The notes below the pieces were generated by a model. That model saw only the letters and a program-made list of their open reading frames with translations, searched no databases and had not been told where the DNA came from. A DNA stretch of 64,000 nucleotides from Streptomyces asiaticus (GTDB lineage: Bacteria; Actinomycetota; Actinomycetes; Streptomycetales; Streptomycetaceae). Shown piece after piece: positions 6,601-48,037 of the stretch; position 1 is the stretch's first letter, and each line of letters starts with the position of its first letter. The stretch covers positions 248,001 through 312,000 of the forward strand of contig NZ_JAGSHX010000001.1 in NCBI RefSeq assembly GCF_018138715.1, written 5' to 3'. The position numbers and the translations under genes were made by a program.

Positions 6601-9600
6601 AAGGTGTCGTGGAAGCCGGTCTCCGACCTGGCCGAAGGGTCGTTGTCGGGGACCTGGCTGGTGGTGGTTCCGGCGTCCCGTGTCGGCGACGAGCTGGTGG
6701 CGGGGGTTGTCGCCGGGCTCGAGCGGCACGGCGCGGGTGTGGTCCCGGTCGCGGTGGACGAGCGGGACCTCGACGCGGACGTGCTGGCGGAGCGGCTGCG
6801 CGAGGCGGCCGCGGAGACGCCCGAGCTGGGTGGTGTGCTGTCCCTGCTCGCCCTGGACGAGGAGCCCTGCCCCGGATATCCGGCGCTGTCGGGCGGCTAT
6901 GCGCTGACCCTGGTGCTGGTGCGGGCCATGGTGCGGGCCGAGATCCCGGCCCGGCTGTGGTGCGGTACGCGGGGCGCGGTGTCGGTGGGGCGTTCGGACC
7001 GGCTCACCAGCCCGACGCAGGCGATGGTCTGGGCGCTGGGCCGGGTCGCCGGTCTTGAGCTCCCCCCGCTGTGGGGCGGTCTGGTCGATCTGCCCGAGTC
7101 GCTGGACGCGCGCGGCGCGGCGCGGCTGGCCGGGGTGCTGTCCGTCGAGGGCGGCGAGGACCAGGTCGCGGTGCGCGGCTCCGGTGTCTTCGTACGTCGT
7201 CTGGTGCGGTCCGCCCCGGCCGCCGGCGAGGAGATCTCGTGGCGGGCGCGTGGCACGGTGCTGGTGACCGGTGGTACGGGCGGGCTCGGTGGCCAGGTGG
7301 CCCGCTGGCTGGTCCGCAGCGGTGCCGAGCACTTGGTGTTGACCAGCCGCCGCGGTCTCGAGGCCGAGGGCGCCGCCGAGTTGAAGGCGGAGCTGGAGGG
7401 CATGGGCGCCGAGGTGACGGTGGCCGCGTGCGACGCGGCGGACCGTGACGCGCTCGCCGCCGTCCTGGACGCCGTACCGGAGCACCAGCCGCTCACCGGG
7501 GTGGTGCACGCGGCGGGTGTCACGATCGCGGCTTCCCTGCTGGAGACGGAGCTCGCGGACGCGGCCCGGGTGGTGTCGGGCAAGGTGGCGGGTGCCGTCA
7601 ATCTGGACGAGCTGCTCGGCGACCGTGAGCTCGACGCGTTCGTGGTCTTCTCGTCCATCTCCGGTGTGTGGGGCGGCGGCAGCCAGGGCGTCTACGGCTC
7701 CGGAAACGCCTTCCTGGACGCGCTGGTTGAGCAGCGCCGGGCGCGGGGTCTCGCGGGTACCGCCGTCTCCTGGGGCCCGTGGGCCGAGGGCGGCATGGCG
7801 ACCCGGGACGACGCGGGGGAGCAGCTGGCGCGGCGTGGTCTGCCCGCGATGGCACCCCAGCTGGCGATCGCCGCTCTGGAGCGCGCGGTGGCCGGTGACG
7901 ACGGTCTGGTGACGGTGGTGGACGTGGACTGGGAGCGGTTCGCGCCCTCGTTCACCGCGGTCCGTCCCAGTCCGTTGCTGAGCGACCTCGACGAGGTCCG
8001 GGCGCTGGAGACGCAGGGCGACGGTGGCGAGAGCGCCGAGGCCGCCGGGGCGCAGCTGCGCGAGCGGCTGAAGCCGCTGACCGAGGGGGAGCGGGACCGG
8101 GCGCTGCTCGATCTGGTGCGCAAGCACGCCGCCGCCGTGCTCGGTTACGCCTCCGCCGAGATGGTCGAGCCGAACCGGGCCTTCCGCGATCTGGGCTTCG
8201 ACTCGCTGACCGCGGTCGACCTGCGCAACCGGCTGGCCGCGGAGACCGGTCTCAGCCTGCCCGCCACGCTGGTCTTCGACTACCCCAGCGCCGGCACGCT
8301 CGCGGCGTATCTGCGGACCGAGGTGCTGGGCACCGCGTCGTCGCCGGCGCTCGTCGCCGGGTCCGGGGCCGTGGCCGGGTCCGGCGCGGACGACGACCCC
8401 ATCGCGATCGTCTCCATGAGCTGCCGCTTCCCCGGCGGGGTGCGCAGCCCGGAGGACCTGTGGCAGCTGGTGGAGAGCGGCGGTGACGCCATCTCCTCCT
8501 TCCCGTCGGACCGCGGCTGGGATCTGTCGGGCATGTATGACCCGGACCCGGACCGGCCCGGCACGTTCTACGCCCGTGAAGGCGGATTCCTGTACGACGC
8601 GGCCGAGTTCGACCCCGGCTTCTTCGGGATCTCGCCGCGTGAGGCGCTGGCGACCGACCCGCAGCAGCGGCTGCTGCTGGAGACCTCGTGGGAGGCGTTC
8701 GAGCGGGCGGGCATCAACCCCGCGTCGGTGCGGGGCAGCCAGGTCGGCGTGTTCGTGGGCTTCTCGGGCTCCGGTTACGGCGCCAATCTGGAGACCGTGC
8801 CCGAGGACGTCGAGGGCCACCTGCTGACCGGCAACGCGGGCAGCGTCGTCTCCGGCCGTCTCGCCTACACCTACGGCCTGCAGGGTCCCGCCGTCACGGT
8901 GGACACCGCCTGCTCGTCGTCGCTGGTGGCCCTGCACCTGGCCTGCCAGTCGCTGCGTCAGGGCGAATGCTCCATGGCGCTGGTCGGCGGTGTGACGGTG
9001 ATGGCCACCCCGATGGCGTTCGTCGAGTTCAGCCGGCAGGGCGGGCTCGCCCCCGACGGGCGCTGCAAGCCGTTCTCGGCCGCGGCGGACGGTACGGGCT
9101 GGAGCGAGGGCGCCGATGTGCTGCTCGTGGAGCGGCTGTCGGACGCCCGGCGCAACGGTCACCAGGTGCTCGGCATCGTGCGGGGCTCCGCCGTCAACCA
9201 GGACGGTGCGTCCAACGGCCTGACGGCCCCCAACGGCCCCTCGCAGCAGCGGGTGATCCGCCAGGCGCTGGCCAGCGCCGGGGTGTCGGCCGCCGAGGTG
9301 GACGCGGTGGAGGCGCACGGCACGGGTACGTCGCTGGGCGACCCGATCGAGGCGCAGGCGCTGCTGGCCACCTACGGCCAGGAGCGGCCGGAGGGCCGCC
9401 CGCTGTGGCTGGGTGCGCTCAAGTCGAACATCGGGCACACCCAGGCCGCGTCCGGACTCGCCGGCGTCATCAAGATGGTCATGGCGATGCGGCACGGCGT
9501 ACTGCCGAAGATGCTGCATGTGGACGAGCCGTCGCCGCAGGTGGACTGGTCGGCGGGCGAGGTGCGGCTGCTGACCGAGGCCACCGCGTGGCCGGAGACG

Positions 9601-19300: not shown

Positions 19301-22300
19301 GGAACTGCTGACCGAGGCGGTGCCCTGGCCGGAGCGGGGCCACCCGCGCAGGGCGGCGGTCTCCGCCTTCGGCGTGAGCGGCACCAACGCGCACACCATC
19401 ATCGAGCAGGCGCCGGTTTCCGACGAGCCGGAGGCGCCACGGGCCGAAGAGGCACCGGGCGCCACCGCGGTCCCGGTGCCGTGGATCCTGTCCGGCAGGA
19501 CCGACGCCGCCCTCCGGGATCAGGCCGAGCGGCTGCGGAACCAACTGGCCACGGCCACCGAAGAGTTCATGCCCACCGTGGACATCGGCTATTCCCTCGT
19601 GACGAGCCGGTCTCTCTTCGACCACCGGGCTGCCCTGGTCGGCGAGGATCGCGCGGCCATGCTGCGCGGCCTCGAAGCCCTCGCGAAGGGCGAGACCGCG
19701 CCCGGCGTCGTACGCGGCGTGGCGGGGGCGGCCGGCAAGACGGCGTTCCTGTTCTCGGGCCAGGGTGCGCAGCGCCTCGGGATGGGCCGGGAGCTGTACG
19801 ACGCCTTCCCGGTGTTCGCCGACGCGTGGGACGAGGTGTGCGCCCACCTGGACGGTCTGCTCGACCGCCCGCTGCGGGAGGTGGTGTTCGCGGCGGAGGA
19901 GAGCGCGGACGCCGAGCTGCTGGACCGGACGGCGTTCACCCAGCCCGCGCTGTTCGCCGTCGAGGTGGCGCTGTTCCGGCTGCTGGAGCACTGGGGTGTC
20001 CGCCCGGACGTGCTCATCGGCCACTCCATCGGTGAGATCGCCGCCGCCCACGTGGCCGGGGTGTTCTCGCTGGAGGACGCGTGCGCCCTGGTGGCGGCCC
20101 GTGGCCGGCTGATGCAGGCGCTCCCCGAGGGCGGCGCGATGGTGGCGGTCCAGGCGTCGGAGGAGGAGATCTCCGGATCGCTCACCGGCCGTGAGGCCGA
20201 GGTGAGCATCGCCGCCGTCAACGGCCCGACCTCCGTGGTCATCGCGGGCGACGAGGCACCGGCGCTGGAGATCGCCGCCGAGTGGGAGCGGCAGGGCCGC
20301 AAGACCCGCCGGCTGCGGGTCAGCCACGCCTTCCACTCGCCCCGCATGGACGCGATGCTCGGCGACTTCCGCAAGGTCGTCGAAGAGTTGTCCTTCGCCT
20401 CGCCGAGGATCGCCCTGGTATCCAACGTGACCGGTCAGCCGGCCGCCGCCGATGAGGTGTGCTCCGCGGAGTACTGGGTCCGCCATGTGCGGGAGGCGGT
20501 GCGGTTCGCGGACGGCGTGCGGGCGCTCGAGGAGCAGGGCGTCTCCCGGTTCGTCGAGGTCGGCCCCGATGGAGTGCTGACCGCGATGGCGAGGGAGTGC
20601 CTGACGGCGGAGGAGACTTCGGCTCCCGTCGTGGTGCCGGTGCTGCGCAAGAACCGTCCCGAGACGCGGGCGCTGACGACGGCGCTGGCCGAGCTCCACG
20701 TGAACGGCGTCGGAGTGGACTGGGAACAGGCCTTCGCGGGACGTGGCGCGCGGAAGGTCGACCTGCCCACGTACGCCTTCCAGCGGGAGCGCTACTGGCT
20801 GGAGAGCCTGACGTTCCCCAGCGATTTCACCGCCGCGGGGTTCGCCCCGTCGGTGGATACGCGGTTCTGGGAGGTGGTCGAGCGTGAGGATCTCGAAACG
20901 CTCACCGAGACGCTCGACGTCGATGCCGAGACGCCGCTGAGCGCGGTGCTGCCGGCTCTGTCGGCGTACCACCGCAACAGCCGTGACCGGTCCATTGTCG
21001 ATGGCTGGCGTTATCGGGTGTCGTGGAAGCCGGTCCCCGACGCCGCCGACGGCTCGCTGTCGGGGACGTGGCTGGTGGTCGTTCCGGCGTCCCGCGCGGA
21101 GGACGAGCTGGTCTCGGGGGTTGTCGCCGGGCTCGAGCGGCATGGCGCGGGTGTGGTGCCGGTCGTGGTGGACGAACGGCACCTTGACACGGACGCGTTG
21201 GCGGAGCGGCTGCGCGAGGCGGTCGCGGAGGTGTCCGAGCCGGGTGGTGTGCTGTCGCTGCTCGCCTTGGACGAGGACCCCTGCCCGGCGCACCCGGCGC
21301 TGTCGAACGGCCTCGCCCTGACGCTGTCCCTGGTGCGGGCCATGGTCGAGGCGCGTGTCGAGGCTTTGGTGTGGTCCGGAACGCGTGGCGCCGTGTCGGT
21401 GGGCCGTTCCGAGAAGCTCAGCCATCCGACGCAGGCGATGGTGTGGGCGCTGGGCCGGGTGGCCGCGCTGGAGCTGCCCCAGCTGTGGGGTGGTGTGGTC
21501 GATCTGCCGGAGTCGCTGGATGAGCGTGCGGTGGCGCGGCTGGCGGGTGTGCTGTCCGCCGGGGGCGGCGAGGACCAGGTGGCGGTGCGCGGCTCGGGTG
21601 TGCTCGCGCGTCGTCTGGTGCGGTCGGCCGCGGCTGTCGGTGAGGGGACCTCGTGGCGGGCGCGCGGCACGGTGCTGGTGACCGGTGGTACGGGTGCGCT
21701 GGGTGGTCATGTGGCGCGCTGGCTGGCGCGTAGTGGTGCCGAGCATCTGGTGCTGACCAGCCGTCGGGGTCTTGACGCGCCGGGCGCGTCCGAGCTGCGC
21801 GATGAGTTGGAGGCGCTGGGTGCCCGGGTGACCGTGGCGGCCTGTGATGTGGCCGACCGTGGGCAGCTGGCCGCGGTGCTGGACGCCGTTCCTGCGGAGT
21901 ATCCGCTGACGGCGGTCGTGCACGCGGCGGGCACCAACGGGGTGGCGCCGCTGATGGAGACCGGGTTGGCCGACGTCGCCGACGTGGTCTCCGGCAAGGT
22001 GGCCGGCGCCGTCAACCTGGATGAGCTGCTCGGCGACCGCGAGCTGGACGCGTTCGTGGTCTTCTCGTCGATCGCGGGTGTGTGGGGCAGTGGCGGTCAG
22101 GCCGGGTACAGCGCGGCCAATGCCTATCTGGACGCTCTGGTGGAGGAGCGTCGCGGGCGGGATCTTGCCGGTACCGCCGTGGCCTGGGGCCCCTGGGCCG
22201 AGGGCGGTATGGCGGAGGGCGATGGTGGCGAGCAGTTGGCGCGGCGTGGTCTGCCCGCGATGGCGCCTGACCTGGCGATCGCCGCGTTGCAGGGGGCGGT

Positions 22301-25300
22301 CGCGGGTGATGACGGTGTGGTGGCGGTCGCCGATGTGGACTGGGAGCGGTTCGCCCCCTCGTTCACCATGGGGCGGCCGAGTCCGCTGATCGGTGATCTG
22401 CCCGAGGTCGAGCGGGTGCTGGCGGAGGCCGGGGAGACCGAGGACGCCGGGCTCGGTGCGGGTGCGGCGTTGCGGGAGCGGCTGGCGGGGCTGACCGGGG
22501 CCCAGACCGACCGGGTCCTGCTCGATCTGGTCCGGGACCATGCTGCCGCGGTGTTGGGATTCACCGGCACGGAGGCGGTTGAGCCCGGGCGGGCCTTCAA
22601 GGAGCTGGGTTTCGACTCGCTCACAGCGTTGGAGTTCCGCGACCGGCTGGCCGCGGAGACCGGTCTCAGCCTTCCCGCCACGCTGGTCTTCGACTACCCC
22701 AGCGCCACGGTGCTCGCGGCGTATCTGCGGACCGAGGCGCTGGGGGCGTCGTCCCCGGCGATCGCCGCCGGGTCCGGGGCGCCCGCCGGTTCCGGCGCGG
22801 CCGACGAACCCATCGCGATCGTCTCCATGAGCTGCCGCTTCCCCGGCGGGGTGCGCAGCCCGGAGGGCCTGTGGCAGCTGGTCGAGAGCGGCAGTGACGC
22901 CATCTCCTCCTTCCCGTCGGACCGCGGCTGGGACCTGGGCATGTACGACCCGGACCCGGAGCAGTCGGGCGGGTTCTACGTCCGTGAAGGCGGATTCCTG
23001 TACGACGCGGCCGAGTTCGACCCCGGGTTCTTCGGGATCTCGCCGCGTGAGGCGCTGGCGACCGACCCGCAGCAGCGGCTGCTGCTGGAGACCTCCTGGG
23101 AGGCGTTCGAGCGGGCGGGCATCAACCCCGCGTCGCTGAAGGGCAGCCAGGTCGGCGTGTTCGTCGGCTCCTCGGGCTCCGGTTACGGCGCCAACCTGGA
23201 GACGGTGCCCGAGGACGTCGAGGGCCATCTGCTGACCGGTAACTCCGGCAGTGTCGTCTCCGGCCGTCTCTCCTACACCTACGGTCTGGAGGGCCCCGCC
23301 GTCACGGTGGACACGGCCTGCTCCTCCTCGCTGGTGGCCCTGCATCTGGCCTGTCAGTCGCTGCGTCAGGGCGAGTGCTCCATGGCGCTGGTCGGCGGTG
23401 TGGCCGTGATGGCGACTCCGATGGCGTTCGTCGAGTTCAGCCGGCAGGGCGGGCTCGCCCCCGACGGCCGGTGCAAGCCGTTCTCGGCCGCGGCGGACGG
23501 TACGGGCTGGAGCGAGGGTGTCGATGTGCTGCTCGTGGAGCGGCTCTCGGACGCGGAGCGCAACGGCCACCAGGTGCTTGCGGTGGTGCGGGGCTCGGCG
23601 GTGAACCAGGACGGTGCGTCGAATGGTCTGACCGCGCCGAACGGTCCGTCGCAGCAGCGGGTGATCCGCCAGGCGCTGGCCAACGCTCGTCTCTCGGCCG
23701 CCGAGGTGGACGCGGTGGAGGCGCACGGTACGGGCACCTCGCTGGGTGACCCGATCGAGGCTCAGGCGCTGCTGGCCACCTATGGTCAGGAGCGCGCCGA
23801 GGGGCAGCCGCTGCTGCTGGGCGCGTTGAAGTCGAACATCGGGCACACCCAGGCCGCCTCCGGTGTGGCTGGTGTGATCAAGATGGTCATGGCGATGCGG
23901 GAGGGCAAGCTTCCCAAGACGTTGCATGTGGATGAGGCGTCGCCGCATGTGGATTGGTCGGCGGGTGATGTCGAGCTGCTGACCGAGGCGACGCCCTGGC
24001 CGGAGACGGGCCGTGTGCGCAGGGCGGCAGTGTCCGCGTTCGGGGTGAGTGGCACCAACGCGCATGTGATCATCGAGCAGGCGCCGACCGCTGACGGGCC
24101 CGGTACGGAGCAGGCGGGGGATGTCGCGGGCTCCACCGCGGGCCCGGTTCCTTGGGTCCTGTCCGGTAAGACCGAGGCGGCTCTTCGGGGCCAGGCCGAA
24201 CGGCTGCTCGGTCAGCTGGCCTCGGCTGTCGACGATTCCGCGGTCGTTGTGGATGTCGGCTACTCCCTGGCGGCGACCCGATCGCTCTTCGACCACCGGG
24301 CCGTGTTGGTCGGTGAGGACCATGAGGAGCTCCTGCGCGGCCTTGAGGCCGTCATGCGGGGCGGGACCGCGCCGAGTGTGGTGCGCGGTGTGGCGGGGAG
24401 GGCCGGTAAGACGGTGTTCGTCTTCCCCGGCCAGGGTGCGCAGTGGATGGGCATGGCGGTGGGGCTGTTGGAGTCCTCGCCGGTGTTCGCCGAGGCGATC
24501 GGCGAGTGTGAGACGGCCCTGTCGGCCTACGTGGACTGGTCGCTGACCGAGGTGCTGCGTGGCGCCGACGGCGCTCCCGGATTCGACCGGGTGGATGTGG
24601 TCCAGCCGGTGCTGTTCGCGGTGATGGTGTCGCTGGCGAAGCTGTGGCGTTCGATGGGCGTCGAGCCCGACGCCGTCATGGGTCACAGCCAGGGCGAGAT
24701 CGCGGCGGCCTGTGTGGCGGGTGCGCTTTCGCTCCAGGACGCCGCGAAGGTGGTGACCCTGCGCTCGCAGGCCATCGCCGCGGGTCTGGCCGGCCGTGGT
24801 GGCATGGTGTCCGTCGGACTGCCGGTCGACCAGGTCAAGGACCGTATCGCCGCCTGGGACGGCGCGATCTCGGTCGCCGCGGTCAACGGCCCCGGCTCGG
24901 TGGTCGTCTCCGGTGATCCGGGGGCGCTGGACGAGATGGTCGCGCGGCTTGAGGGTGAGGATGTCCGGGTTCGCCGGGTTCCGGTGGACTACGCCTCGCA
25001 CTCCGCGCATGTGGAGGCGATTCACGAGGAGCTGCTGAAGGTTCTGGCGGACCTCGAGCCGCGTTCCTCGGAGGTGCCGTTCTACTCCACGGTCTCCGGT
25101 GAGCTGATGGACACCGCCGGTCTGGACGCGGAGTACTGGTACCGCAACCTGCGGCAGACCGTTGAGCTGGAGGCCACCACCCGTACCCTGCTCGGCAGCG
25201 GCCACGGTGTGTTCATCGAGGTGAGCCCGCATCCGGTGCTCACCCTTCCCGTTGAGCAGACCGTCGAGGCCGCCGAGGCCCGGGCCGTGGTCGTGGGCAC

Positions 25301-28369: not shown

Positions 28370-31300
28370 ATGAGTGAGACAAAGCTCCGCGACTACCTGA
28401 ACAGGGTGACGACTGATCTGCACCGCACCCGTCAGCGCCTTCGGGATGTGGAGGCGAAGCAGCGGGAGCCGATCGCGATCGTCGCGATGAGCTGCCGTTT
28501 TCCTGGTGGGGTCACCTCGCCGGAGGAGCTGTGGCGCATCGTCGCCGACGAGATCGACGTGCTCTCACCGTTCCCGAAGGACCGGGGCTGGCACGAGGAG
28601 CTGTTCAATCCCGACCCGGACAGCCAGGGGACCAGCTATGTGAACGAGGGCGGGTTCCTGTACGACGCCGCGCTCTTCGACCCCGTGTTCTTCGGGATCT
28701 CCCCGCGTGAGGCGCTGGCGATGGACCCCCAGCAGCGGCTGCTGCTGGAGACGTCCTGGGAGGTCGTGGAGCGGGCGGGCATCGACCCGCTGTCTGTCAA
28801 GGGCGCCGCGGGCGGCGTGTTCATAGGCGGTGCCAACACGGGGTACGGCGCGGCCGGGGCGATGGAGGCCGAAGAGGTCGAAGGCCATCTGCTCACAGGG
28901 CAGCACCCTGCCGTCACCTCCGGCCGGATCTCCTATGTGCTCGGCCTCGAAGGCCCCGCGGTGACGGTGGACACGGCGTGTTCATCGTCTCTGGTCGCCC
29001 TGCACATGGCCGTGCAGGCGCTGCGTCAGGGCGAGTGTGACTTCGCTCTGGCCGGGGGCGTCGCCGTGATGGCCCTCCCGGGAGGGTTCACCGAGTTCAG
29101 CCGCCAACGAGGACTCGCGACCGACGGCCGCTGCAAACCCTTCGCGGCGGCCGCCGACGGCACCAACTGGTCCGAGGGCGTCGGCGTGCTGTTCGTGGAG
29201 CGGCTGTCGGACGCCCGTCGCAACGGCCACCCGGTGCTGGCCGTCATCCGAGGTTCGGCAATCAACCAGGACGGCACCAGCAATGGTCTGACGGCTCCCA
29301 ATGGCCCCTCGCAGCGCAGGGTGATCCGCCAGGCGCTGAAGAACGCCGACCTGACGCCCGCTGATGTGGATGCGGTGGAGGCGCACGGCACGGGTACGTC
29401 GCTGGGCGACCCGATCGAGGCGCAGGCGCTGCTCGCCACCTACGGCAAGGAGCGGCCGGAGGACAAGCCGCTGTGGCTGGGCGCCCTCAAGTCCAACATC
29501 GGCCATACGCAGTGGACGTCGGGTGTGGCCGGGGTCATCAAGATGGTGATGGCCATGCGGAACGGTATCCTGCCGAAGACACTCCACGTGGACGAGCCGA
29601 CACCCCATGTGGACTGGTCGGCGGGGGCCGTGGAGCTGCTCACCGAGGCTCGGCCCTGGCCGGAGACAGGCCGGCCCCGTCGGGCGGGGATCTCGGCCTT
29701 CGGAATCGGCGGAACCAACGCGCACACCATCATCGAGCAGGCCCCCGAAGCCGAGGAGCCGGAGCCGGCCGATCCGCAGGCCGGTGCTGGGGGTGAGCCT
29801 GCGCCTGCCGCCTCCTCCGTTGTGCCATGGCTGGTCTCCGGCAAGGGCGAGGCCGCGCTGCGGGCACAGGCCGAGCGGCTGCACGCGAGTCTGACGGCCC
29901 AGGGTGCTTCTCAGGACAACGATCTCGCGCTCGCGTCGGTGGCGGACATCGGTTACTCCCTGGCAGTGTCCCGGTCGGCGCTCGAACACCGTGCCGTGGT
30001 GATCGGCGAGGACCGCGACAGCCTCCTGCGCGGTCTCCAGGCCGTGGCTCAGGGCGAGATCGCTCCGGGCGTGGTCAAGGGACAGACGGTGAAGCGGCCC
30101 AGGACCGTCTTCGTGTTCCCGGGGCAGGGGGCGCAGTGGGCGGGGATGGCGGTGGACTTGCTGGAGTCCTCGCCGGTGTTCGCCGAGGCGATCGGCGAGT
30201 GTGAGAAGGCTCTGTCGGCGTATGTGGACTGGTCGTTGACGGATGTGCTGCGCGAGGCTGAGGGTGCTCCTGGTTTCGACCGGGTGGATGTCGTTCAGCC
30301 GGTGTTGTTCGCGGTGATGGTCTCGTTGGCGAGGCTGTGGCGTTCGGTGGGTGTGGTGCCGGACGCGGTGATGGGTCACAGCCAGGGTGAGATCGCGGCG
30401 GCGTGTGTGGCGGGTGCGCTCTCGCTGGAGGATGCGGCGAAGGTGGTGGCGCTGCGGTCGCAGGCGATCGCGGCGAGTCTTGCCGGTCGTGGTGGCATGG
30501 TGTCGGTCGGGCTGCCGGTCGACCAGGTCAAGGAGCGCATCGTCTCCTGGGATGGTGCGATCTCGGTGGCGGCGGTCAACGGCCCCGGTTCGGTCGTGGT
30601 CTCCGGTGATCCGGGGGCGCTGGATGAGATGGTGGCCGAGCTGGAGGGCGAGGAGGTGCGGGTTCGCCGGGTTCCGGTGGACTACGCCTCGCACTCCGCC
30701 CACGTGGAGGCGATCCGCGAGGAGCTGCTGAAGGTTCTGGCGGACCTTCAGCCGCGTTCGTCGGAGGTGCCGTTCTACTCGACGGTCTCCGGTGCGCAGG
30801 TCGATACGGCAGGTCTGGACGCGGAGTACTGGTACCGGAACCTGCGGCAGACCGTTGAGCTGGAGTCCACGACGCGCACGTTGCTGGATGACGGTCATAC
30901 GGCCTTCGCCGAGGTGAGCCCGCACCCCGTCCTCACGCTTCCCGTTCAGCAGACGGTGGAGGCCGCTGAGAAGAAGGCGGTGGTCGTGGGCACGCTGCGG
31001 CGGGATGAGGGCGGCCTGGAGCGGTTCCTGACCTCCGCCGCCGAGCTGCACGTCAGTGGCGTCGGCGTGGACTGGCGGACGGTGTACGAGGGCCGTGGTG
31101 CCCGCCGGGTCGATTTGCCGACCTACGCCTTCCAGCGTCAGCGCTACTGGCTGAACTCGGTGGCGGCCGTCGGCGACGTGGGATCGGTGGGCCTCGGGGC
31201 GGTGTGGCATCCCCTGCTGGGCGCCGCGGTCTCGCTTGCGGGCGGCGGCGGAGTGGTGCTCAGCGGGCGGCTGTCGATGGCCACGCACGCCTGGCTCGCC

Positions 31301-34300
31301 GACCACGCGGTGCAAGGGGTGCCGCTCGTGCCCGGGACCGCCTTCGCGGAGATGGTCGCGCAGGCGGGGGACCAGGTCGGGTGCGGCCGGGTCGATGAGC
31401 TGGTGCTGCTGGCGCCCTTGGCGGTGCCCGAGCGCGGAGGGGTGCAAATCCAGGTCGAGGTGGGGGAGGCCGACGCCTCGGGCCATCGCGAGGTGAGCGT
31501 GTACTCACGGATGGAGCCGGCCGACGACAAGGCCGACCTCGAGGAGCCGTGGGTGCGGCACGCTCACGGCGTGCTCACGCCGCCCGGTCCCGCGGCCTCC
31601 TTCGACTTCGCGAAGTGGCCGCCCTCCGGGGCCAAGCCTGTCGATATCTCCGGCGGCTACGAGCACGCCGAGGAGCACGGGCTGCACTACGGCCCCGCGT
31701 ACCGGGGGTTGCGGCGCGCCTGGAAGCGCGGCGATGCGGTGTTCGCCGAAGTCGAGCTGCCTGAGGACCAGCGCGGCATCGCGAAGTACTTCGGTCTGCA
31801 CCCGGCCCTGTTCGACGCGGCCATCCAGGCGATGGGCGCGAACAACGCGTTGCGCGGCGGCGACGACGCGCCGAGCGCGGGCAGTCTGATGCCGTTCTCG
31901 TGGCGGGGATTCTCCCTGGAAGCAGTCGGTGCCCAAGCGCTTCGCGTCCGGATCATCCCGGACGGACGGCAGGCCGTGTCGCTGGCCATGGCCGACACCT
32001 CGGGCCGCCCGGTGGCTTCCGTCGATTCCCTCCTCTTCCGGCCCATGCAGGCCGCCACGTTGCAGAACACGGGCCGGACGGCCGGTGACGCGTTGTTGCG
32101 CATGGAGTGGACAGCGGGCGCGGTGAAGCCCGCCGAGGGCGTGGCACCCGGCTGGTGGGCGGTGCTGGTCGACGACTGCCTTGGCGTGGGCGCCGCTCTG
32201 GAGGCGGCGGGCACCTACCCCGCCGATGTGTACCCGGACCCCGCGGCGCTGAGTGACACCGTGGCGGCGGGCACGAGCATGCCCGGAATGGTGGTACTGC
32301 CGGTGGCTTCGAACGGCCCCGCTGTGGTGGACGAGGTCCACACACGGGTCGGTGAGGTGCTGGAGACCGTTCAGTCATGGGTGGCGGACGACCGGTTCGT
32401 GGGCACCCCGCTGGTGGTGCTGACACAGGGGGCCGTTGACACTGGCGACGGTGTGCGGGATCTGGCGGCTGCGGCGGCATGGGGTTTGGTGCGGTCGGCG
32501 CAGTCGGAGCACCCGGGACGGGTCGTGCTGGTCGACACGGATGATGTCGAGCGTGCGGTGAAACTGCTCGCGGGCGTGGTAACCGCTCGTGAGGAGCAGG
32601 TGGTGGTGCGTTCGGGCGAGGTCCGCGTGCCACGTCTGGCCCGCTCGCTGCCCGCGGGCAACGCTCCCGAGCCGGAGGTGTTCGGTTCCGGCGCCGTGCT
32701 GGTGACGGAGGGCACGGGAGCTCTGGGCGGTTTGGTGGCCCGGCATCTGGTGGCCCGGCACGGTGTCAGGAAGCTGGTGCTGCTGTCCCGCCGTGGTGCG
32801 GAGACGGACGGCGCGGTCGAGTTGCGGGCCGATTTGGAGGCCGCGGACGCCGAGGTGGTGGTCGCGGCTTGTGACGCCGCGGACCGTGAAGCGCTTGCCG
32901 CGGTGTTGGCAGGACTGTCCGAGGAGTTCGCGTTGAGCGCCGTAGTGCATGCGGACGAGGTGCTCGATGACGGGCTGTTCGCATCGCTGACACGCGAGCG
33001 GGCGAGCGCGGTGCTGCGGGCGAAGGTGGACGCGGCCTGGAACCTGCATGAGCTGACCGCGGGCATGGACCTGTCGGCGTTCGTGCTGTTCTCATCGACC
33101 GCGGGTCTGCTCGGCGCGGCCGGGCAGAGCAACTACGCCGCGGCCAATGTGTTCCTGGACGGCCTCGCGTCATGGCGTCGTGCTCAGGGACTGCCGGGTG
33201 TCTCGCTGGCGTGGGGCCGGTGGGCCCAGGACAGCGGAGTGACACAGCAGGAGGAGATCGACAACTGGCGCTACCAGGTGTCGTGGAAGCCGGTCCCGGA
33301 CGTGGCCGGGGGCTCGCTGTCAGGGACCTGGCCGGTGGTGGTTCCGGCGTCCCGGGCGGGGGACGAGCTGGTCTCGGGCGTTGTCGCCGGGCTCGAGCGG
33401 CATGGTGCGGATGTGGTCTCGGTCGTGGTGGACGAGCGGGACCTGGACGCGAACGTGCTGGCGGAGCGGTTGCGCGAGGTCGCCGAGCAGGCGCCCGAGC
33501 TAGGCGGTGTCCTGTCGCTGCTGGCCCTGGACGAGGAGCCCTGCCCGGGGCACCCGGCCCTGCCGGGCGGCTACGCGCTGAGCCTGGCGCTGGTGCGGGC
33601 CATGGTCGAGGCGAAGATTCCGGCTCGGCTGTGGAGCGGTACGCGAGGGGCCGTCTCGGTGGGCGGTTCGGACCGGCTCACCAACCCGGTGCAGGCGATG
33701 GTGTCGGCGTTGGGCCGGGTGACCGCGCTGGAGCTGCCGCCGCTGTGGGGCGGTGTGGTCGATCTGCCCGAGTCGCTGGATGAGCGCGGTGCGGCGCGGC
33801 TGGCCGGCGTGCTGTCCGTCGAGGGCGGCGAGGACCAGGTCGCGGTGCGTGGTTCCGGTGTCTTCGTACGCCGTCTGGTGCGGTCGGCCGCGACCACCGG
33901 TAAGGCGACGTGGCGGGCGCGGGGCACCGTGCTGGTGACCGGTGGCACGGGCGGGCTGGGCGCTCATACGGCCCGCTGGCTGGCGCGTAGCGGTGCCGAA
34001 CATCTGGTGCTGACCAGCCGTCGTGGTCCTGACGCGCCGGGCGCGTCCGAACTGCGCGAGGAGCTGGAGGCGCTGGGAGCCCGGGTGACGGTGGCGGCCT
34101 GCGATGTGGCCGACCGTGAGCAGCTGGCCGCGGTGCTGGACGCGGTGGAGCGGGAGCATCCGCTGACGGCGGTCGTGCACGTGGCGGGGGCCACCGGGGT
34201 GGTGCCACTGATGGAGACCGGGTTGGCCGATGCCGCCGCCCTGGTAGCGGGCAAGGTGGCGGGCGCCAGCAACCTGGACGAGCTGCTGGGCGACCGGGAG

Positions 34301-36127
34301 CTTGACGCGTTCGTGCTCTTCTCGTCGGTCTCCGGTATGTGGGGCAGCGGTGGCCAGGCCGCCTACAGCGCGGCCAACGCCTATCTGGACGCGCTGGTGG
34401 AGGAGCGTCGTGGACGGGGTCTCGTCGGCACGTCCGTGGTCTGGGGCCCCTGGGCCGAGAGCGGCATGGCGGCGGGGGACGTCTCCGGGGAGCAGCTGGC
34501 GCGACGTGGGCTGCCCCGGATGGCGCCGGAGCCGGCGATCGCCGGTCTGGAACGCGCGGTAGCGGGCGGCGACGGCGTGGTGACGGTCGTGGACGTGGAC
34601 TGGGAGCGGTTCGCGCCTTCGTTCACCTCGGTCCGGCCCAGCCGGTTCCTGAGCGATCTCTACGAGGTCCAGCGGCTGGACACGGCATGGAACGATGTGG
34701 CGCGCACCGGTCTGGTGCCCCTCTCCTCCGAGGAGGGCCTGGAGCTCTTCGACGCGGGCGTCGTCTCCGACACGGCCGTGGTGGTTCCCGCCCGGCTGGA
34801 CATCGGTGTGCTGCGCGCCCAGGGCGCCGCGATGCCCGCCGTGTTCCGTTCCGTCGTCCCGGACGCCCCCGTCCGCCGTGCGGCTCGGGCGGCGGAGTCC
34901 GAGGTGGACCAGCCCACCCAGCTGCGGCAGCGGCTGGCCGGGCTGTCGGAGGCCGAGACGGACGAGGTGCTTCTCGAACTGGTGCGTACCGTCGCCGCCG
35001 CGGTGCTCGGGTTCGCATCGCACAATGACATCGACACGAGCCACGAGTTCATGGAGATGGGCTTCAACTCCCTTACCGCGGTGGAATTCCGTAACCAGCT
35101 CGCTGCCCTTACCGGCCTCCGGCTGAACACCACGGTCGTCTTCGACTACCCGAGCCCGGGCGAGATGGTGGCCCATCTGCGGCCCCGGCTCGCGGCCGAG
35201 GTCCCGTCCAGCCCCGTCAACCGCCAGGTCCAGGAGCGGACCGCCCCGGCCGCTCCGGTCGCCGCGCCCGCGCCCGTGACCGAGCCCGCTCCCGCGGCGC
35301 CGCAGGCGGACGACACCCTCGGCTCTCTCTACCGGCAGGCGGCGCAGCAGGGTAAGCACAAGGTCGGCATGGATCTGCTGGTGAACGCGGCAAGGCTCCG
35401 TCCGACCTTCGAGGACCCCGCCGACTTCGAGGGGACCATCAGGCCCGCGCGGCTCTCCCGGGGCCCTGGACGTCCCCGGCTGGTGTGTTTCTCCTCCCAC
35501 GTCGCCCTGGGCGGCGTCCACCAGTACGCGCGGTTCGCCGCGCCGTTCCGTGGCAACCGGGACGTGGCGGCCCTCGGCACTGTGGGGTCCGTCCCGGGTG
35601 AGAGCCTTCCGGCCACCCTGGACGCGCTGTTCCGCTTGCAGGCGCGGCTCGTTGCCGAGTATGCCCAGGGCGACCCGGTCGTCCTGTGCGGCTCCTCGGC
35701 CGGTGGAATGTTCGCCCACTCGGTGGCCGCCGCCATGGAGGGCCAGGGCACACCGGCCGCGGGAGTCGTCCTGATGGACACCTACCTTCCGTACACCACG
35801 AAGCTCGGCCAGTTCGAGGACGCCTGGACGAACGAAATGTACGAGCGGGAGGAACTCGTCTCCATGGACGGTGTCCGGATGTCCGCCATGGGCTGGTACG
35901 TGCATCTGCTCGAGGGGTGGAAGCCGCCGCAGATCTCGGTTCCCAGCCTCCAGGTTCGTGCGACGGAGCGGGTGCTGGCGGCGGCTCCGGACGCGGATGC
36001 GCAGAGCTGGCAGGCGGACTGGCCCGCCGACTCCGCCATCGACGTGCCCGGAGATCACTTCACCATGATGGAGAAGCACGCGGACACCACCGCCCAAGCC
36101 GTCGAGGACTGGGTGGCCAACCTTTAG
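28370..36127 (+). CDS. Terminal type I PKS: KS-AT(mm)-DH-KR(degenerate, split)-KR-ACP-TE
   Basis: ATG start at 28370, 53 bp after the previous gene; 2585 residues. Order: docking helix (1-30), KS (33-455, DTACSSS), AT (578-915, GHSQG and YASH, methylmalonyl), DH (945-1230, [10 protein letters not shown] and HPALFDAA). The first KR has its structural half at 1240-1436 and catalytic half at 1440-1622, and it is damaged: the cofactor loop reads TEGTGALG (Glu1447 replaces Gly) and HAAG reads HADE (1527-1530), although LDD, FSS and NYAAAN remain. A second complete KR follows (1630-2090, [23 protein letters not shown]1-type). After it, the C-terminal part of the first KR resumes (2102-2164). ACP (2198-2274) has GFNSL, with Asn2233 in place of Asp before Ser2234. 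The TE (2357-2580) has GSSAG (Ser2443), an MDTY acid and GDHF. This gene releases the finished chain, presumably by cyclisation. A terminator hairpin follows. Confidence 0.96.
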
Positions 36128-36239: not shown

Positions 36240-39200
36240 GTGAGCAGCATGTTGCGCGGGTCCAGCGACTCAGACGAGTCCGGAATCCAGGCTGGGCCGG
36301 ATCACGGCGAGGGCCCAGGCGAACTTCCATCACTCGCACCGGACTTCCGAGAACTGCTGGACCACGAGCAGCGAAGGGTCCTGTTCGACCTGGTGCGCGC
36401 ACATGTTGCCGCGGCGCTGCGGTCCGAGTCGCCGCGTACGCTCGACGCGGAGAGCTCGTTCCTCGACCTGGGTCTTGACTCGCTGGCGGCGGTCAATCTG
36501 CACCGCGGACTGGTGGCGGCCACCGGCCTCACGCTGGAGGTGTCGCTCGCCTACGACTACCCGACGCCCAGCGAGCTGGTGGACCACCTCCACCGGCAGA
36601 TCTTCCCCGTGGCCACGGACGACACCGCCCCCGCGCGTGCTGTCGTGGGCTCGGACGACCCCATCGCGATCGTCGGGATGAGCTGCCGCTTCCCCGGCGG
36701 TGTCAACAGCCCCGAGGACCTGTGGAAGGTCGTCTCCGAGGGCGTGGACGCCATCACCCCGTTCCCCACCGACCGGGGCTGGGACCTGGAGGCGCTCTAC
36801 AGCCCGGACCCGGACCAGCCCGGCACCAGCTACGCGACCGAGGGCGGGTTCATCCACGACGCGCCCGAGTTCGACGCGGAGTTCTTCGGCATATCGCCGC
36901 GTGAGGCGCTCGCCATGGACCCGCAGCAGCGGCTGCTGCTGGAGACCAGCTGGGAGGTCTTCGAGCGGGCCGGCATCGACGTGACCAAGCTGCGGGGGAG
37001 CAGGACCGCCGTCTTCACCGGCGCGGAGCACCACGACTACGGGCCCCACCTGCAAAGCACCAAGAGCGGCCTCGAAGGCTATGCGCTGACCGGAACCGCG
37101 GGCAGCCTCGCCGCCGGGCGCATCGCCTACACCTTCGGCTTCGAGGGCCCGGCGTGGACCGTGGACACGTCGTGCTCCTCGTCGCTGGTCTCCCTGCACC
37201 AGGCGGCGCAGTCGCTGCGCCAGGGGGAGTGCGATCTGGCGCTCGCCACCGGTGTCGCCACGATGCCCACCCCGGGTGACTTCATCCTCTTCAGCCGCCA
37301 GCGCGGGCTCTCCTCCAACGGGCGCTGCAAGGCGTTCGGCGCCGAGGCCGACGGCACCTCGTGGGCCGAGGGCGTCGGCGTCCTCCTGGTGGAGCGGCTC
37401 TCGGACGCCCGGCGCAACGGCCACGAGGTGCTGGCGATCGTGCGTGGCTCCGCCGTCAACCAGGACGGCGCCAGCAACGGTCTGACGGCCCCCAACGGCC
37501 GTTCCCAGCAGCGTGTCATCCGGCAGGCGCTGGCCAACGCCGAGCTGACCGCGGACCAGATCGACGTGATCGAGGCGCACGGCACCGGAACCTCGCTCGG
37601 CGACCCCATCGAGGCGCAGGCGCTGATCGCCACCTACGGAGAGAGCCGACCGGAGGGACAGCCGGTGTGGCTGGGGTCCCTCAAGTCGAACATCGGCCAC
37701 ACCCAGGCGGCGGCCGGTGTGGGTGCCGTCATCAAGATGGTGATGGCCATGCGCCACGGCATCCTGCCCAAGACGCTGCACGTGGAGGTGCCGACCCCGC
37801 ACGTGGACTGGTCGTCGGGCGGCGTGGCGCTGCTCGCCGAGCAGCGCTCCTGGCCGGAGACCGGGCAGCCACGCCGTGCCGGTATCTCCTCGTTCGGCAT
37901 GAGCGGCACCAACGCACACGCCATCATCGAGCAGGCACCGCCGGTGGAGCCCGCCCCCGCGACGGACGACGCCGACGAGGACACGGCGTCCCAGCCCGTG
38001 TCGTGGCTGGTGTCCGCCAGGAGCGAGGAGGCGCTGCGGGCGCAGGCCGCGCGGCTGCGCGAGCACGTGGTGCACCACCCCGACGCGCGGCCGGTCGACA
38101 TCGGATGGTCGTCCGCCGTGACACGTGCCGCACTCAAGCACCGGGGCGTGGTGGTGGCCTCCGACCGCGAGGGGCTGCTGCGCGGCCTCGCCGCCCTCGC
38201 CGAGGACACCGACGCGCCGGGCCTGGTGCTGGGCAGGTCCACCGCGCAGCGGATGGCGTTCCTGTTCACCGGACAGGGCGCCCAGCGGCTGGGCATGGGC
38301 CGCGAGCTCTACGAGACCTACCCGCTCTTCGCCGACGTGTTCGACGAGGCGTGCGACTATCTGGAGGTGCGCCTGGGCACCTCGGTGCTCGACGTGGTCT
38401 TCGGCCCCGAGGACGACGACGCGGCCGCCGCCACCGGTGACGAGCTCAACCAGACGATGTTCGCCCAGGCCGGGCTGTTCGCCTTCGAGGTGGCCCTGTT
38501 CCGCCTGCTGGAGTCCTGGGGCGTGCGCCCCGACTTCCTGATGGGGCACTCGGTGGGCGAGATCGCCGCGGCCCACGTCGCCGGGGTGCTGTCCCTGGAG
38601 GACGCGTGCGCCCTGGTGGCGGCCCGCGGGCGGCTGATGCAGGAACTGCCCGAGGGCGGCGCGATGGTGGCCGTCCAGGCGTCGGAGGAGGAGGTGGCCG
38701 GAAGCCTGACGGGCCGCGAGGACCAGGTGTCGCTGGCGGCGCTGAACGGCCCCACCTCGGTGGTGCTCTCCGGCGACGAGGACGCGGTCCTCGAACTCGC
38801 CGGCCACTGGGAGGCCCAGGGCCGCAAGACCAAGCGGCTGCGGGTGAGCCACGCGTTCCACTCCCCCCGGATGGACGCCATGCTGGAGGAGTTCGGCCAG
38901 ATCGCCGCCTGCCTGGCGTACTCGGCCCCGGCGATCCCGGTCATCTCCAACGTCACCGGCGATGTCGCGGGCGCCGAACTGGCCACCCCGGAGTACTGGG
39001 TCCGCCACGTTCGGGAGGCGGTCCGCTTCGACGATGGCATGCGCCGCCTCGCCGACCAGGGCGTGACGACCTGTGTGGAGCTCGGCCCCGACGCCGTGCT
39101 GACCGCGATGGGCCAGGACTGCCTGGACGCCGTCGGCGCCGACGCGGCCTTCGTGCCCCTGGCCCGCTCCGGGCGCGCCGAGGCCCAGACGCTGGCGGAG

Positions 39201-42200
39201 GCGGTCGCCACCCTGTACGCGAACGGCGTGGGCGTGGACTGGGACGCGGTGTACTCCGGGCGCGGCGCCCGCCGGGTCGCCCTGCCGACCTACGCCTTCC
39301 AGCACAAGCGGTACTGGCTCGAGTCGGGCGGCGCCGGGACCGGCGACGCCCGGAGCGTCGGCCTCGGCAGGGTGGACCACCCGCTGCTCGGCGGGATCAC
39401 CGAACTGGCCGAGGGCGACCGCACGGTGCTGACCGGGCGCCTGTCGCTGCAGACCCACCCGTGGCTCGCCGACCACGCCGTGGCCGGCGGAGTGCTCTTC
39501 CCCGGCACCGGTTTCGTCGAACTGGGCCTGCTCGCCGGCACCGAGACCGGTGCCGGACGGCTCGGGGAACTCACCCTCGAGACCCCGCTCCTCCTGCCGG
39601 AGCAGGGCGGCGTCCGCGTCCAGCTCGTGGTCGGCCCCGCCGACGAGTCCGGCGTAAGGTCCCTCGGCGTGTACTCCCGCTCCGACAGCGACGAGCCGGG
39701 GGAGGAGTGGGTGCGGCACGCCCAGGGCGTCCTCGAGGCCGACAGCGGCGCCGCGGTCACCGACAGCCTGCTGCGGTGGCCCGTCCCGGGCGCCGAGCGG
39801 GTGCCGATGGAGGGCTTCTACGAGGGCCTGGCCCAGGTCGGTTACGGATACGGGCCGGTCTTCCAGGGGCTGGAGTCGGTCTGGCGGCTGGACGGCGACG
39901 TCTACGCCGAGGTGGCGCTACCGGACTCGGCCGCCCAGGAAGCCGGACGGTTCGGCCTGCACCCCGCCCTGCTCGACGCCGCCCTGCACGCCATGGAGAT
40001 GGGCGACTTCGGCGGCGAGAGCGGGCGCGTGACCCTGCCGTTCTCCTTCACCGGGGTGACCCTGTACGCGGCGGGCGCCGGACGGGTGCGGGTGCGGCTG
40101 CGCCCGCAGGGCAAGGACACGGTCGCGCTGCTGGTGACGGACGCCACGGGCGCTCCCGTCGCCTCGGTGGAGTCGCTGGTGATGCGCGAGGTGGCGGCCG
40201 AGCGGTTCGCCTCCGGGCCGCGCGCCGCCGGCAGCGACGGAACGCTGCTCCGGGCCAACTGGGACGAGTTCGCCGCCGCGCGGGACGGCGAGCGGACCGT
40301 GGACGGCACGTCCACGGCGGTGATCGGCGCCGACCGGGCGCGGGTGGCCGGGCTGCTCACCGCCTCCGCCGTCGAGTACGCCGAGTACACCGGGGTGGAC
40401 GCGCTCGTCGCCGCCGTCGACGAGGGTGCCGCGGTGCCGGATGTGGTCTGGGCCTGGTGCGGCGGCGAGCTCGCCGGGCCGGACGCCGGGAACCTCGCCG
40501 ACGCCGCTCGGAAGGCGACCCACCGGGCGCTGGCCCTGGTGCAGTCCTGGCTGGCGGAGGACCGGTTCGACGGGTCCCGGCTGGTCGTGGTGACCAGCGA
40601 CGCGGTCGCGACGGGCCCGGGTGAGGGCGTCGCCGGACTGTCCAACGCCGCGGTCTGGGGACTGCTGCGTTCGGCGGCCACGGAGAACCCGGGCCGGATC
40701 CAGCTGGTGGACATCGACCGCCACGCCGAGTCGGCCGTCGCGGCCGTCGGCGTGGTGACGGCCGCGTTCGCGGCGGGCGAGCGCGAGGTGGCGCTCCGCG
40801 TGGGCCGGGGGCTGATTCCCCGGCTCGCCAGGGACGCCGCCGGGCGGGTGCTCGAGGCCCCCGCCGGCACCTCGGCATGGAAGCTCGGCACCACGGGTGG
40901 CGGCACCCTGGACAGCCTCTCGCTGCTGCCCGATCCGGCGGCGGAGGAGCCGCTGGCACCCGGATACGTGCGGATCGCGGTGCGCGCCGCCGGTCTGAAC
41001 TTCCGTGACGCGCTGATCGCCATCGGCATGTACCCCGACGACCACGCCACGATGGGTGGCGAGGGCGCCGGTGTGGTCCTGGAGGTCGGCCCGGGAGTCA
41101 CCGACCTGGCACCCGGTGACCGGGTCATGGGCATGATCGACGCATCGTTCGGGCCCGTCGCGGTCACCGACCGGCGGCGGATCGTCCCCATGCCGAGCGG
41201 CTGGACGTTCGCGCAGGCGGCGACGGTGCCGCTGGTCTTCCTGACGGCTTACATGGGCCTGGTGGAACTCGGCGAGCTCCAGGAGGGCGAGACCATCCTG
41301 GTGCACGCCGCCACCGGTGGTGTGGGCATGGCGGCCGTGCAACTCGCACGCCACCTCGGCGCCGAGGTGTACGCCACGGCCAGCCCCGGGAAGTGGGACA
41401 CCCTGCGGGCGATGGGATTCGACGAGAAGCACATCGCCTCGACGCGTGACCTGGAGTTCGAGCGGCGCTTCACGGAGGCCACCGACGGCCGGGGCATGGA
41501 CATGGTGCTGGACTCGCTCGCCCGCGAGTTCGTCGACGCCTCCCTGCGGTTGCTGCCCAGGGGCGGGCGGTTCCTGGAGATGGGCAAGATCGACGTGCGG
41601 GACCGCGAGGTCGTCGCGCGGGACCACCCCGGGGTGAAGTACAGCGCGTACGACCTGGACGTGGCCGACTACGACTGGGTCCAGCGGATGCTGGCCGACC
41701 TGGTCGATCTCTTCGACCGTGGCGCACTGCACCCCCTCCCGGTGACGGCGTGGGACGTGCGCCGGGCACCGGACGCGGTGCGGTACATCAGCCAGGCCCG
41801 GCACATCGGCAAGAACGTGTTCACCATGCCCAGCGCCCTGGACCCCGAGGGTTCGGTGCTGATCACCGGTGGCACCGGCGGCCTGGGCAGCCAGGTGGCG
41901 CGCCACCTGGTGGCCGAGCGCGGAGTGCGCAACCTGGTCCTGGTCTCCCGGCGCGGGCCGGACGCGGAGGGCGCCGCCGACCTCAAGGCCGAACTGGCCG
42001 AGGCGGGCGCGTCGGTGACGCTGGCGGCCTGCGATGTGGCCGACCGCGCCTCGCTGGAGCGGGTGCTGTCCGGCATACCCGCCGAGCACCCGCTGACCGC
42101 GGTCGTGCACGCGGCGGGCGTACTCGACGACGGTGTCATCGACACTCTGTCGCCGAAGCGGATCGACACGGTTTTCGAGCCGAAGGTCGACGCGGCGTGG

Positions 42201-43151
42201 AACCTGCACGAGCTGACCCGCCATCTGGACCTGGCGGAGTTCGTGATGTTCTCGTCCGCCGCCGGTGTGTTCGGCAGCCCGGGACAGGGCAACTACGCCG
42301 CGGCCAACTCGTTCCTGGACGCGCTCGCCGCACATCGGCGCGCGCTCGGCCTCCCCGCCGTATCGCTGGCCTGGGGACCGTGGGAGCAGGCCGGCGGCAT
42401 GACCGGCACGCTCAGCCACGCGGACATGGTGCGCATGGCGCGCGAGGGCATGGCGGCCCTGTCCATGGCGGGCGGTCTGCGTCTGCTGGACGCCGGCCGG
42501 ACCAGTGAGGACGCCCTGCTCGTGCCGATGCGGCTGGAGACTTCGGCGTTCAGCGGCCAGACCGACATCCCCACCCTGCTGCGGGGTGCGGTCCGGGTGC
42601 GGAGCAGGGCGGCGGCCGACGGGAAGGCGACCGCTGCCGAGTCGGCAAAGGAGCAGCTGGCCGGTCTCTCCGGAGCCGAACTCGACCATGCGCTGCTCGC
42701 CCTGGTGTGTGGCAGCGCGGCGATGGTGCTGGGCCACAGCGGCGCCCAGTCCATCAAGCCCGACCGCTCCTTCCAGAGCCTCGGTTTCGACTCGCTGGCG
42801 GGCGTGGAGTTCCGTAACCGGCTGAACTCGGCCACCGGGCTCCGCCTTCCCTCCACGCTGATCTTCGACAACCCCACGCCCGCCGCGCTCGCCGAGTATC
42901 TGCGCGGCCGGGTGGCGACGGACAGCCCGGCCGAGTCGGACATGGATCCGGAAGAGGCCAGGATCCGTGCCCTTCTGACGTCGATTCCGCTGGGACGCCT
43001 GCGCCGCTCCGGTCTGCTGGACGCGCTCACCGAGCTGGCGAGCGGCAAGGACCAGGCCGAGACAGACACCGAGGAGAAGGAGACGGACTCCATCGACGCG
43101 ATGGACGACGACGACCTGATCGACATGATGCTCGAGGATCTCGACAACTGA
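36240..43151 (+). CDS. Initiating type I PKS: ACP-KS-AT(m)-DH-ER-KR-ACP-docking
   Basis: A GTG start at 36240 sits 4 bases after AGGAG; ATG at 36249 is an alternative. 2303 residues. There is no N-terminal docking helix. Instead the protein opens with an ACP (about 50-120, LGLDSL with Ser81). Then come KS (138-563, DTSCSSS instead of the DTACSSS of the other KS domains), AT (670-1005, GHSVG and HAFH, malonyl), DH (1043-1320, [20 protein letters not shown]), KR structural half (1333-1533), ER (1550-1863, [10 protein letters not shown]), catalytic KR (1870-2115, HAAGVLDD, B-type), ACP (2150-2225, GFDSL) and a class-1 docking tail containing [15 protein letters not shown]. Architecture and the deviating KS fit a loading protein that accepts a starter on the first ACP and adds one fully reduced acetate unit. 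It lies last among the PKS genes but should act first. The tail differs from the FxFIDxELG tails of the other genes, so its partner is probably outside the window. Confidence 0.95.
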
Positions 43152-47798: not shown

Positions 47799-47860
47799 GC
47801 TGCCTGCCTTCTCGTGATGGGGCCCACGGGCTCGCTCGCTGTCACGGAACCCAAGAGCCC

Positions 47861-47902
47861 GCGCTCTCTCGTGGTTACTCGGAAACCGTAGGAGAGTGGC
47901 CT
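47861..47902 (+). promoter_or_regulatory. Copy 2 of the repeated 42-bp element, upstream of RidA
   Basis: It matches 46900-46941 at 36 of 42 positions in the same orientation, although the neighbouring gene (RidA) runs the other way. Both copies keep GTAGGAGAGTG and the CTCTC arm. In the rest of the 318-bp gap between RidA and the Cip1-like gene I see only the CebR-type operator described below. Confidence 0.5.
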
Positions 47903-48037
47903 CTGGCAGGGAAGAACGCACTTTTCGGTGACTGAGGAACCTTTTGGTGACCGACGGGCGAAGCGGCTGGGGTGCCGGTCGCGCGGACATCCGGCCTTCC
48001 GGGCTTGTCATGTACGGGCTACAGTGCGAGAGATATA

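Follow-up and report, generated by a model that had tools for sequence, protein, structure and literature searches.

The DNA examined here is a 64,000-nucleotide stretch of Streptomyces asiaticus (RefSeq assembly GCF_018138715.1, contig NZ_JAGSHX010000001.1, positions 248,001 to 312,000 of the forward strand), hereafter the window, which contains a modular polyketide synthase (PKS) gene cluster. The terminal PKS protein is a single module ending in a thioesterase (TE), and between its dehydratase (DH) and acyl carrier protein (ACP) there are two ketoreductases (KRs), one lodged within the other: a complete A-type KR (KR2) interrupts the lid loop of a B-type KR (KR1), whose C-terminus then resumes. 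The features of this gene, which begins with a docking segment, a ketosynthase (KS) and an acyltransferase (AT), are listed by window coordinates.

28370..36127, + strand: terminal PKS gene, 2585 aa, no internal stops; docking-KS-AT-DH-KR1(N)-KR2-KR1(C)-ACP-TE
31202..32065, + strand: DH, residues 945-1232; His979 of HxxxGxxxxP and Asp1149 present
32087..32680, + strand: KR1 structural half, residues 1240-1437
32687..33244, + strand: KR1 catalytic half up to the cut in the lid loop, residues 1440-1625; B-type LDD, Glu1447, HADE at 1527-1530, no lid helix
33245..34693, + strand: inserted unit, 483 aa, residues 1626-2108; whole A-type KR plus short linkers
33263..33913, + strand: KR2 structural half, residues 1632-1848
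33923..34669, + strand: KR2 catalytic half, residues 1852-2100; GGTGGLG, Lys1962, Ser1986, Trp1991, Tyr1999, Asn2003, GM and xLxR lid motifs
34694..34864, + strand: resuming C-terminal tail of KR1, residues 2109-2165
34979..35179, + strand: ACP, residues 2204-2270
35477..36112, + strand: TE, residues 2370-2581

The domain map of the open reading frame at 28370-36127 bears out the order DH, KR1, KR2, ACP, TE that a first-pass annotation had proposed, as well as the features it had described in KR1 (LDD, FSS and NYAAAN kept; the cofactor loop altered to TEGTGALG by Glu1447, and HADE at 1527-1530). The catalytic domains of KR1 and KR2 are in one frame, and no KS, AT or ACP lies between them, only the structural half of KR2.

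Boundaries and origin of the inserted ketoreductase

The residues after position 2108 match the C-terminus of an orthologous uninterrupted B-type KR (score 217, z 37 over 200 shuffles), versus a score of 48 and z 2.8 against A-type tails in the same shuffle test. The claim that the C-terminus of KR1 resumes after the insert therefore holds, and the alternative that residues 2102-2164 are the normal C-terminus of KR2 is excluded. The nesting itself also stands, with its extent adjusted from the roughly 478 residues (33241-34674) first proposed to 483 residues at 33245-34693. The guest is placed after the catalytic core of KR1, not between its structural and catalytic halves.

The insert resembles two A-type KRs of the same gene cluster.

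21006..22418, + strand: A-type KR, second module of gene 13341-28316
6583..8013, + strand: A-type KR, first module of gene 3649-13269

DNA identity is 83.3% with the KR at 21005-22418 (spanning 33265-34678 of the terminal gene) and 82.3% with that at 6582-8013 (spanning 33256-34684). Thus the likeness first noted, to the KR of the second module of the third PKS gene, is real, but the first KR of gene 3649-13269 is about equally close. KR2 also clustered with the A-type KRs of its own gene cluster in a 54-row KR tree built by a quick method. These comparisons of sequence show that the guest was copied from an A-type KR of this same cluster, with cuts near the domain boundaries, and that it lies in frame.

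Nested, intact and KR2-less relatives

An alignment of 25 terminal modules contained 11 intact rows, five nested rows and nine rows with a decayed KR1 and no KR2 (eight after dropping a repeat, P0125 and L062 being the same strain). A search with a model of the junction added nested genes from four genomes (G079, G188, G173 and G407), giving nine nested rows in total, which represent about four lineages: P0003 is 97% identical to L158, and P0004, L159 and L160 are mutually 96-97% identical. The intact form is represented by S. buecherae AC541 (G031), whose terminal protein is KS-AT-DH-KR-ACP-TE with 85% identity to that of S. asiaticus in the KS and 82% in the KR1 core, and by a published azalomycin producer (P0127), whose terminal protein has the same uninterrupted KR. 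The uninterrupted lid of G031 reads SGMTGHLGQGDLRRVSRSGL, and its interrupted counterpart in S. asiaticus reads SGVT-[KR2]-DVARTGL.

KR2-less terminal modules with a decayed KR1 were found at L164 (in G277), L056, L057 and L062 and in P0121-P0126. HADE is present in all nine KR2-less rows, the acidic residue of the cofactor loop in seven, and GM is retained in one (P0123). In Streptomyces sp. DSM 40750 (P0121; DNA in L164, G277) the junction joins ACACAGCAG to GTCCAGCGGCTGGACACGG; its left side is the left flank of S. asiaticus, and its right side is a KR2-derived tail, VQRLDT, which resembles the donor A-type tails (EVRALET). Among the rows examined, VQRLDTAW otherwise occurs only after KR2. 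The loci L056 and L062 share the flank ACACCGCCCGGGCGGGAC with nested L158, which they match at the DNA level as far as the junction, and resume at GATGCGGCG or GATGTGGCG. These junctions are best read as scars of in-frame deletion. A single gain of the guest followed by two or more losses is probable, since different scars stand on different flanks; in the ACP-TE tree, L062 joins nested P0003 and L158 (support 76/94).

State of the host and of the guest

KR1 retains the LDD motif of B-type KRs. All nine nested rows have Glu at the position of Glu1447 and HADE in place of HAAG, and in all nine the lid is replaced by KR2, with GM present in none, which supports the degenerate host KR of the first-pass annotation. 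Further changes are Arg in the Gly loop (three rows), Ser to Ala (one row) and Tyr to Cys together with Asn to His (one row); a catalytic residue of KR1 is lost in two of the nine, and KR2 is intact in both. An acidic residue at the first Gly of the cofactor motif was found in 11 of 548 KR domains, nine of them from this clade, and HxDE also in 11 of 548, ten of them from this clade. The three KRs outside the clade with either substitution each lack at least one standard catalytic residue. GM ahead of the lid helix is described as highly conserved in reductase-competent KR types except A2, and C0/C1-type KRs that retain Tyr as carrying NADPH-site mutations instead (PMC11228615).

The ratio of nonsynonymous to synonymous substitution rates (dN/dS) among nested genes (10 pairs) is 0.28 for the catalytic core of KR1 and 0.34 for that of KR2. 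For the KR1 tail it is 0.64 in nested genes, 1.04 in genes without KR2 (6 pairs) and 0.16 in intact genes (6 pairs). The intact group comprises three genomes rather than four, L059 and L165 being identical in protein; taken by single pairs (L059, L060, L064) it gives about 0.15 for the tail and about 0.26 for the KR1 core, which leaves the picture unchanged. The KR1 core is thus not free to drift, because its ratio is 0.28 versus 0.34 for KR2, and only the KR1 tail is relaxed. A scaffold role of KR1 would account for a constrained core with a relaxed tail.

KR2 has the Gly motif GGTGxxG, the Lys, Ser, Tyr and Asn of the active site, the A-type lid motifs GM and xLxR, and Trp without LDD in all nine nested rows. 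Residue 1996, which we take to be the position of the A2-type His, is Gln or Leu and not His. KR2 thus carries the sequence features of a working A1-type KR with an intact Gly motif, as had been claimed for the single sequence, and its best solved relatives are the AmphI and AmphB KRs. The typing of A and B by Trp versus LDD, the existence of an A2 His motif, and GM and xLxR as A-type lid motifs follow PMC11228615. The KR2 of P0005 groups with the KR of another module, which could reflect gene conversion within the cluster and would fit a guest in use.

The gene cluster and its predicted product

By our own count of the modules in order, the cluster has 22 modules, placing the lactone oxygen at C39 (a 40-membered ring) and a ketone at C19, which is (n-2)/2 for n = 40. 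Genes for AMP-binding (ligase-type) and C-N hydrolase proteins, which presumably have a marginolactone role, lie near a starter gene that also contains an enoyl reductase (ER).

36240..43151, + strand: loading and first-extension gene, ACP-KS-AT-DH-ER-KR-ACP; layout like AzlA (loading ACP and extension module 1) of azalomycin

The cluster is therefore predicted to be a PKS for a marginolactone, a guanidino-polyol macrolide, with a 40-membered, malolactomycin-like ring. The rule that marginolactones have a ketone at (n-2)/2 of an n-membered ring is given in PMC6864768, as are the 40-membered members malolactomycins A-D and RP 63834 (reported as 41-membered, which that review doubts). The gene preceding the terminal one (13341-28316) has three modules, versus two in the azalomycin-type cluster of G031, for which 19 modules were counted by the same procedure; the azalomycin F PKS is reported to have 19 modules (PMC5518293). 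The extra KS-AT-KR module may partly account for a 40- versus a 36-membered ring. In G188 (L158, L166) a nested terminal module stands beside a two-module preceding gene, the 36-membered type, and nesting seems not to be tied to ring size. Downstream of the PKS genes, at 47391-50434 on the - strand, there are two open reading frames, with an endoribonuclease L-PSP domain and a weak DUF3616 match.

The terminal AT carries the motif that by the usual rule denotes methylmalonyl, and therefore the end of the product should be 2-methyl with either a C3 hydroxyl or a C2=C3 double bond. Niphimycin is C59H103N3O18 and azalomycin F4a is C56H95N3O17, and their difference of C3H8O is as expected if C3 of niphimycin keeps its hydroxyl. 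Niphimycins A and C were reported at m/z 1142 as [M+H]+ (PMC10483227), and azalomycin analogs (F5a, C57H97N3O17) with a dienoate band at 269 nm (PMC3705372). A modelling of product formulas reproduced the carbons of azalomycin and was 2 H short, so the mass comparison is limited to the 18 Da by which hydroxy and ene forms differ.

In the DH motif YGPxF, a Tyr in place of Phe is confined to this clade (9 of 233 DH domains; among the nested rows, six of nine). Nested P0005 has the only Gln among the 233 in place of the DH His, with KR2 kept; this loss is a supporting hint that the DH does not act on the product of KR2. Arg for Gln in YGPAFQG was dropped as a sign of a dead DH, being common (78 of 233 domains).

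Competing explanations

We hold, with moderate confidence, an explanation in which host KR1 would no longer reduce and would persist between DH and ACP as a folded scaffold, while guest KR2, as an A1-type KR, would reduce the last beta-ketone. The DH next to it would not accept an alcohol of the resulting configuration; the C3 hydroxyl would then survive, and ring closure would give a 2-methyl-3-hydroxy-4-ene ester, in contrast to the 2,4-dienoate of azalomycin. In some descendants an in-frame deletion would later have removed the guest and left scars. That KR2 reduces and the DH idles on its product is suggested by the A1 features of KR2 and the missing lid of KR1. A switch from B- to A-type reduction is thus plausible, and a retained alcohol is likelier than an altered alkene geometry. 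Several observations weigh against parts of this account. The dN/dS values of the nested genes do not show the relaxed selection that had been expected of KR1 in comparison with KR2; Lys, Ser, Tyr and Asn of KR1 are all kept in seven of the nine nested rows; and the DH retains His979 in eight and Asp1149 in all nine. Structural support is poor, an AlphaFold2 model of 935 residues (14 alignment rows) reaching a mean predicted local distance difference test (pLDDT) score of 61.6 and a predicted TM-score (pTM) of 0.35; in this model both KR cores show stretches at pLDDT 75-91 and the KR1 tail is at about 26-50, and Foldseek matched it to KRs with TMq of about 0.24 and a root-mean-square deviation of about 20. 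The whole-module tree places the KR2-less rows in one clade (support 100/99), which speaks against at least two losses and would fit a single loss, unless recombination has mixed these rows. Approximately unbiased (AU) tests do not reject the nested rows as one clade (p 0.16, 0.32 and 0.075), so the case for gain before loss depends mainly on the scars. The KR2-less rows include S. melanosporofaciens (P0124; 11 member sequences), and a niphimycin-like cluster is reported for S. melanosporofaciens STM-2 (PMC13047742); in relatives without KR2, KR1 or a separate KR may reduce C3.

The conserved DH residues would also suit an active KR2 whose A-type alcohol is dehydrated to a cis (Z) C2=C3 alkene, the insertion having altered geometry, and fostriecin KR2 is cited as an A1-clade KR that gives a cis double bond with a DH (PMC11228615). 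This is nevertheless unlikely in view of the loss of the DH His beside a kept KR2 in P0005, the clade-specific Tyr in YGPxF, and the niphimycin ion (PMC10483227), which with the formulas given above lies one water above the dienoate, for 36-membered relatives rather than for the product of this strain. It is less probable still that KR1 is a working reductase, alone or together with KR2, and KR2 a tolerated passenger: the catalytic residues kept in most rows, the purifying selection on the core and the retention of KR1 in KR2-less relatives favour this, but Glu1447, HADE and the loss of GM and the lid helix are universal among nested rows, catalytic residues are lost in two rows with KR2 intact, and the three KRs from elsewhere that share these substitutions appear inactive. 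Similarly improbable is a history in which a KR1 that had already decayed to a short-lid form, like that of P0122-P0126, was afterwards rescued by the insertion of KR2, the KR2-less relatives being primitive. The prevalence of HADE and the acidic residue in KR2-less rows, and the AU tests, would accord with it; the VQRLDTAW of P0121, the match of L056 and L062 to nested L158 up to the junction, and the paraphyly of nested rows in the best trees of all three data sets argue against it. PKS repeats can misassemble, as was suggested for an earlier ebelactone sequence (PMC5082578), but an assembly artefact is refuted by the same architecture in independent genomes (G079, G188 and G407 have this kind of junction, on contigs 10.4-12.0 Mb long) and by an identity of KR2 to its paralogs of 82-83% rather than 100%; a plain tandem KR-KR fails on the tail test. 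Both can be disregarded for practical purposes.

Rarity, and nesting in another family

Among the matches listed for genomes of the same genus, a full-length match to the junction model was found in 5 of 392, S. asiaticus included. No match at E 1e-36 was found in the other 395 genomes of a phylum-wide sample, with the best 7 candidate places per genome scored, so that misses are possible. Neighbouring KRs occur in four of 236 retrieved proteins (554 KR domains), all from this terminal-module family, and the 139 KR domains of the retrieved loci include one KR-KR pair, in S. violaceusniger L063. In this copy, from strain NBRC 13459, the TE reading frame is broken, whether by a sequencing error or by a genuine mutation. 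Matches in G088, G383 and G096 that appeared to cross the junction were ordinary modules.

In G043 and G046, two genomes from a different family within the order of Streptomyces, a PKS gene ends in a comparable arrangement.

L051 (G043:C30:32503 onward) and L053 (G046): terminal KS-AT-KR-KR-ACP-TE
L052:13827-16700 (G043:C30, about 23.8-26.7 kb) and L168 (G046): module with a decayed A-type KR and an intact B-type KR

In the terminal module the outer KR falls on the B-side of the 54-row tree and the inner KR, which has Trp, on the A-side; a B-type tail resumes after the inner KR (z 8.3, tested in G043). Both KRs lack the catalytic Tyr and no DH was detected in this module of either genome, which suggests a beta-keto terminus. 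The G043 KRs do not group with those of S. asiaticus in the tree, where their branches are long, and this suggests a separate origin. In another module of this cluster, found in 2 of 391 genomes, the A-type KR is decayed and an intact B-type KR comes after it. The tail of this possible nest in G043 gave z 1.9 when compared with 11 A-type tails (one or more shuffles scoring higher) and z 5.1 against 29 other tails (the best shuffle scoring equal), and a B-in-A nest there is possible though uncertain.

Comparison with known systems

The azalomycin F terminal module (Streptomyces sp. 211726, P0127; G031) is an orthologous KS-AT-DH-KR-ACP-TE, in G031 with the same docking start and downstream starter gene, but has a single uninterrupted B-type KR with a lid helix and no KR2, and azalomycins absorb at 269 nm (PMC3705372). 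KR2 aligns over its full length (E ~1e-111) with the A1-type KR of AmphB, from amphotericin module 2 (3mjc, 5xwv), which likewise has Trp and no LDD but is an ordinary domain rather than a guest in another KR. In delta modules an ER lies between the two halves of a KR (cf. 3slk), which stays active; there too a whole catalytic domain is lodged in a KR, whereas the guest of S. asiaticus occupies the lid loop of a host that looks inactive. In the interrupted adenylation domains of nonribosomal peptide synthetases, too, one domain of an assembly line carries a second, catalytic domain within a loop, but these are different enzymes, and guest and host catalyse different reactions. Modules with two KRs were called unconventional and excluded from the data set of PMC11228615, the available part of which describes no topology or nesting for them. 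Searches of an open-access library for paired, tandem or inserted KRs turned up no title or abstract opening that describes a KR nested in a KR.

Beyond what the first-pass annotation described, the nested architecture is common to several strains, the guest has seemingly been lost again in relatives, and a similar case exists in another family. More tentatively, at slightly less than an even chance, nesting of a KR in the lid loop of another may be a recurrent and reversible replacement of stereochemistry that spares the rest of the module, in which the host dies but stays as scaffold and the guest may be lost, with one origin in the marginolactone clusters of Streptomyces, a separate one in the terminal module of a PKS from another actinomycete family (G043, G046), and perhaps a third where the host is A-type and the guest B-type. 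From a bare list of domains, such modules would pass for simple KR-KR. Exchanging KRs while keeping modules functional is a recognised problem in PKS engineering, and the lid loop of KR1 is a naturally used acceptor site for grafting reductases, where the gain and loss of a domain are on view together with their scars in the DNA. The arrangement may also link enzyme architecture to chemistry, that is, to the difference between the dienoate of azalomycin-like and the beta-hydroxy ester of niphimycin- or malolactomycin-like antibiotics.

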